Below are positions 1,796-2,204 of a DNA stretch of 64,000 nucleotides, piece after piece (the first letter of the stretch is position 1; every line of letters starts with the position of its first letter). The notes beneath the pieces are model-generated. The model saw only the letters and a program-made list of their open reading frames with translations. It had not been told where the DNA came from and made no database searches. The position numbers and the translations under genes were made by a program. Source of the DNA: Myxococcus fulvus (GTDB lineage Bacteria; Myxococcota; Myxococcia; Myxococcales; Myxococcaceae); assembly GCF_900111765.1 (NCBI RefSeq), contig NZ_FOIB01000004.1:682001-746000 (forward strand), given 5' to 3'.

Positions 1796-2032
1796 TCAGG
1801 CGTCGAGGACGCGCGCCACCGCGTCCACCACCTCCTGGTCCGTGGGGAAGGCCAGCGACGCCTTCCGGATGACCACCTTGCCGTCGACCGCGACCTCGTA
1901 GCTGCCCGACGGCCCGGGCTTCAGCTCCGCCTCCACATCCAACTCGTCCTTCAACGCGACCGCCGCACGGGCGGCCCTGGGCTTGTAGCCTCAGGAGTTG
2001 CAGTACGTAATCGTGACCTTCTTGTCGGCCAT
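1796..2032 (-). CDS. SelW-like (Rdx family) selenoprotein with in-frame UGA
   Basis: This is a 78-residue thioredoxin-fold selenoprotein of the SelT/SelW/SelH (Rdx, PF10262) type, expected to act in thiol redox reactions. ATG at 2032 follows GAGGAG by seven bases. The frame reads MADKKVTITYCNS, meets TGA at 1991-1993, and continues as GYKPRAARAAVALKDEL through GSYEVAVDGKVV to a C-terminal helix and a TGA at 1796-1798. The reading after the first TGA matches the rest of a SelW protein (C-x-x-U-G-Y-K near the N-terminus, G-x-[FY]-E-V in the middle). A bacterial SECIS-like hairpin follows the codon at the right distance. Sec is residue 14 and its resolving Cys is residue 11. Automated callers would stop at residue 13 or miss the gene. 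The genome must encode selA, selB, selC and selD for this to work; none is in the window. Confidence 0.88.
1958..1976 (-). promoter_or_regulatory. Putative bacterial SECIS element
   Basis: Counting the T of the in-frame TGA (1993) as base 1, bases 18-24 (GGCCGCC) pair with bases 30-36 (GGCGGTC) through seven pairs, one of them G-U. The apical loop is CGTGC. A G sits at the second loop position, 22 bases after the UGA, within the 16-37 base window known for bacterial SECIS elements. It is the expected SelB binding hairpin for Sec insertion. Confidence 0.7.
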
Positions 2033-2204
2033 GGCGTGTCTCCTCGCGCGGGGCTTGGCCCCGTCCCCAAAGAGATAGTGCGTTCGAGGCCCGTGAGCCA
2101 GCCAGGTTGCTCCCCGGGCCGACGGAGGACGCGCCGTGACGAGGGCCCCGCCTCGCGCCGGGAACAGGACGCGCGCCGTCCGCGGCGCTAGGTTCTCCTC
2201 CGCC

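Follow-up and report, generated by a model that had tools for sequence, protein, structure and literature searches.

An in-frame UGA codon in a SelW-like (Rdx family) gene of a myxobacterium close to Myxococcus

Introduction

Does the TGA that lies near the start of a short reading frame in a myxobacterium close to Myxococcus end a gene, or is it read as selenocysteine (Sec)? The locus lies within a 64,000-nucleotide stretch of DNA (the window, here meaning the whole stretch analyzed), and a preliminary description had proposed that it hides a SelW-like selenoprotein with a C-x-x-U redox motif. The Sargasso Sea selenoproteome already contained SelW-like bacterial selenoproteins (PMC1088965), and 10 bacterial members had been counted by 2006, together with losses in deltaproteobacterial lineages (PMC1794560). 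Such genes are easily overlooked: those of epsilonproteobacteria were missed by annotation (PMC4607533), and the position of the SelW UGA, near the N-terminus, hid the protein from a screen based on stop codons (PMC1914089). Our literature search for selenoproteins of Myxococcus, Corallococcus, and myxobacteria gave no relevant paper, although the search was limited and is not proof of absence.

By computation, we examined the reading frame, the protein family, the conservation of the TGA and of the hairpin that follows it, and the decoding machinery of the genome. From these, the gene is almost certainly a SelW-like selenoprotein of the Rdx family in which the UGA at codon 14 is read as Sec.

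Results

Reading frame, family, and predicted fold

The gene is on the minus strand, where a single internal in-frame TGA separates the ATG (2032-2030) from the terminal TGA (1798-1796). Its features are as follows.

1796 to 2032, minus strand: selW-like gene of 78 residues, recognized by its frame and by matches to Pfam Rdx (2.8e-13) and NCBIfam TIGR02174 (4.5e-12, above cut-off)
1991 to 1993, minus strand: in-frame TGA, codon 14, putative Sec codon in the motif C-N-S-U; TGA in 43 of 43 distinct aligned TGA-type homologues, Cys in homologues without TGA
2040 to 2045, minus strand: GAGGAG, ribosome-binding site 7 nt 5' of the ATG, read from the sequence; most close relatives likewise have a purine-rich, AGGAGG-like stretch ahead of the start

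The arrangement given earlier, with 13 codons, the TGA, a further 64 codons, and a GAGGAG before the start, was found in full. With U at the TGA, the product has 78 residues, begins MADKKVTITYCNS-U-GYKPRA, and reads in full MADKKVTITYCNSUGYKPRAARAAVALKDELDVEAELKPGPSGSYEVAVDGKVVIRKASLAFPTDQEVVDAVARVLDA; it is obtained only if 1991-1993 is read through. If the TGA is taken as a stop, the mechanical ORF list offers pieces of 71 and 52 amino acids and no intact gene. The expectation that automated annotation would lose the gene is consistent with this list and with the loss of SelW genes reported for epsilonproteobacteria (PMC4607533). Scans of the selW flanks for sigma-70 promoters and for terminators found none, and an Rfam scan of the gene region gave no relevant match. 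A GC-rich inverted repeat at 1748-1781 of the window lies between the convergent ends of selW and a gene of 556 amino acids and is possibly a terminator that the two genes share; it lacks a T run and was not picked up by the terminator scan.

Aligning the extended translation with Rdx proteins, as had been suggested, placed the joined product in the Rdx/SelW family. The match to Pfam PF10262 (Rdx) scored 50.3 bits (cut-off 22.6) and spanned residues 5-73, nearly the whole profile, and that to TIGR02174 (SelT/SelW/SelH) scored 46.1 bits (cut-off 34.2). An AlphaFold2 model built from a 25-sequence alignment (pLDDT 82) predicts a thioredoxin-like strand-helix-strand-strand-strand-helix domain, with strand 1 at residues 6-11, a helix at 17-31, three further strands, and a C-terminal helix; the CXXU motif lies at the end of strand 1, where this family has its CXX(C/U). 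Because the residues 5' of the TGA form the predicted strand 1, both halves of the frame belong to one domain. The top Foldseek matches of the model in the PDB were SelW relatives (TM about 0.8), and the closest solved relatives by sequence were MIEN1, SAV_2001, Atu0228, and mouse SelW.

Conservation of the UGA codon across the phylum

Among 195 genomes of the phylum, 98 carried a homologue, and 97 of these had an in-frame TGA; this last number is the count from the genome survey, and in every TGA-type locus that was fetched the TGA was checked base by base to be the Sec14 codon. Named relatives with the gene include Myxococcus xanthus, M. vastator, Pyxidicoccus, and Corallococcus, and M. xanthus also retains the divergent decarboxylase-like neighbor of selW. 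Across the 43 distinct TGA-type sequences the TGA falls at the same codon and similarity continues unbroken across it, with pN/pS of 0.31 and 0.37 on its two sides, indicating purifying selection on both. The preliminary description had held that the proposal would fall if close relatives all had a stop with similarity ending there; the relatives instead keep the TGA and the sequence beyond it. A mark of bacterial selenoproteins is a UGA in frame where homologues carry Cys, and the gene shows it.

The gene also tracks the Sec tRNA: tRNA-Sec was found in 92 of the 97 genomes with a TGA-type selW versus 51 of the 98 others (Fisher p 3e-12, a value that is only indicative, as the genomes are related). 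Four of the five TGA-type genomes lacking a tRNA-Sec match have SelB above cut-off. In the fifth, G142, an assembly that is 87% complete in 900 contigs, neither tRNA-Sec nor SelB scored above cut-off, which probably reflects an assembly gap. A Myxococcus-type SelW was also found in a record named Comamonas sp. KCTC 72670; that assembly may be mislabelled or contaminated.

Sec-decoding machinery of the same genome

A search of the genome itself (10.8 Mb, 100% complete) for selA, selB, selC, and selD, the check first called for, found the complete set: a tRNA-Sec with anticodon TCA (61.1 bits, above the Rfam cut-off), SelA (558 bits), an in-frame SelB (321 bits), and a Cys-type SelD (385 bits). 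The genome holds at least two selenoprotein genes, SelW and formate dehydrogenase alpha, the second of which reads RIUHSSTV around its own UGA.

L098:1636-4974 (own genome, contig C3, about 928435-931773): formate dehydrogenase alpha, with TGA at L098:2272-2274, then its own hairpin with loop GGTCT

Just upstream of this intact copy, at about 400-846 of the same locus, the N-terminal part of formate dehydrogenase is repeated, a fragment that is probably a decayed partial duplication. When the genome was scanned with a covariance model of the SelW hairpin, only selW itself was significant; the next match (E 0.09) was dropped, its sequence offering nothing in favor.

The hairpin after the UGA

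The sequence that follows codon 14 folds into a SECIS-like hairpin with the features below.

1958 to 1976, minus strand: SECIS-like hairpin, 5' arm 1970-1976, loop CGUGC 1965-1969, 3' arm 1958-1964, supported by fold, covariation (40 distinct sequences), and synonymous variability
1967 to 1968, minus strand: GU of the apical loop, within the rare CGT codon of Arg22; G invariant in 40 of 40 sequences, CGT in 41 of 43

With a 7-bp stem, a 5-nt loop, a UGA-to-loop spacing of 21 nt, and -17.1 kcal/mol, the hairpin fits the published model of bacterial SECIS elements in every respect; that model allows a loop of 3-9 nt, a stem of 4-16 bp, 16-37 nt from the UGA, and an MFE of at most -7.5, with a G at loop position 1 or 2 that is mostly followed by G or U (PMC13188914). 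A hairpin with a loop G at the right distance thus exists as had been described, but the argument was weak as stated and needed comparison. The single-sequence fold is little better than that of shuffled sequences (z -0.91), and hairpins that qualify occur at 397 of 1,844 codon positions (21%) in three neighboring genes. Such structures are common in GC-rich DNA of this kind, and the hairpin alone is weak evidence.

The relatives supply that comparison. Over 40 distinct sequences, 97.5% of cells were paired, and four of the seven pairs showed double changes, 12 such cells in all, a result that no more than 2 of 500 shuffles equalled; when the partner was slid by 1 to 3 columns, zero to two pairs had double changes. 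Synonymous variability was 0.092 in the hairpin codons, about fourfold lower than upstream of the TGA (0.444) and downstream of the hairpin (0.419), and CGT, so nearly fixed at Arg22, accounts for 2% of the Arg codons of neighboring genes. The hairpin is beyond chance because of this conservation, covariation, and codon constraint together.

Two genomes with Cys forms serve as natural controls. G105 carries tandem SelW genes (L056:474-1060), one with TGA and hairpin and the other with Cys (TGC), and in the Cys copy CGA replaces CGT and the hairpin is lost. G056 has a single Cys-form SelW (L055:598-819), and searches of it for tRNA-Sec and SelB gave nothing above cut-off; a hairpin still folds at the old SECIS position, resembling the remnant SECIS elements of Sec-to-Cys changes described previously (PMC1794560). 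A UAA-Sec codon in G056 was considered and rejected, the apparent TAA being the ordinary terminator of the Cys homologue.

Discussion

Two other readings of the TGA were weighed. It could be a true stop, so that the frame is either a pseudogene or a pair of separate short ORFs, one of 13 codons and one of 52 residues starting at TTG, and mechanical ORF calling yields exactly such fragments; yet each of the 43 distinct TGA-type sequences keeps its TGA at this codon with similarity running on past it, purifying selection acts on both sides of it, and a dead stop would not remain TGA, never TAA or TAG, across dozens of species. We regard this reading as having next to no chance of being right. 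The TGA could instead be decoded as Cys, Trp, or Arg through a suppressor tRNA or near-cognate decoding, a reading that draws on the Cys found at this position in some homologues and that we rate barely higher, as very improbable. Set against it are the canonical tRNA-Sec of the genome, the one tRNA that was searched for, its SelB, a conserved and covarying SECIS-like hairpin that is absent from the tandem Cys copy, and the way in which TGA-type SelW follows tRNA-Sec across the phylum.

We therefore favor Sec at codon 14, and the proposal of a SelW-like selenoprotein with a C-x-x-U motif behind an in-frame UGA is upheld by family match, machinery, and relatives alike. Judging from the parts present, SelB with Sec-tRNA-Sec would bind the hairpin just 3' of codon 14, and the bound complex would allow the UGA to be decoded as Sec; covariation and codon constraint in the aligned sequences lend indirect support to SelB binding and hairpin-dependent read-through. 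The product is predicted to be a 78-residue thioredoxin-like domain whose C-x-x-U pair follows strand 1 and precedes helix 1, and would most likely be a small thiol/selenol redox protein working with a partner. Both Sec insertion in the cell and this redox function are what we infer from the computed evidence.

More speculatively, SelW of these aerobic soil myxobacteria, nearly always retained as the Sec form, might perform a Sec-specific task and might help to sustain the Sec-decoding trait in a lineage with few selenoproteins, while the tandem pair of G105 and the Cys-only G056 might be examples of Sec-to-Cys replacement; taken jointly, we consider this tentative, and rather less than probable.

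The finding concerns a real gene split by standard ORF calling, and about 100 relatives across the phylum can be used to correct annotation. The laboratory organism M. xanthus has the same gene and so offers a setting in which to examine what bacterial SelW does. The comparative evidence for selW in myxobacteria is unusually clean, and the gene, real and well supported, would not surprise a selenoprotein specialist.

The gene resembles the bacterial SelW-like selenoproteins already described (PMC1088965, PMC1794560) in its family, in a CXXU near the N-terminus, in a SECIS directly after the UGA, and in decoding by SelA/SelB/SelC/SelD; it differs in that myxobacterial members are unmentioned there and in having a loop, CGUGC, that hardly varies within the myxobacterial group. 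With epsilonproteobacterial SelW (PMC4607533) it shares a short SelW, a covarying SECIS, and genes that annotation misses, but the protein falls outside the corresponding equivalog, NF041051 SelTWH_Campy (66.5 bits versus a cut-off of 88). The Rdx proteins MIEN1/C17orf37 (2ljk), SAV_2001 (3dex), and Atu0228 (2fa8) have the same fold and CXX(C/U) position, with Cys where the protein studied here has Sec. Mouse selenoprotein W (2npb) has a homologous domain and the CXXU motif in common with it, but its SECIS is of the eukaryotic kind, in the 3' UTR, and sequence similarity is weak (E 0.0027). Bacterial SelW selenoproteins and their loss in annotation are already published, and the myxobacterial gene adds a member.
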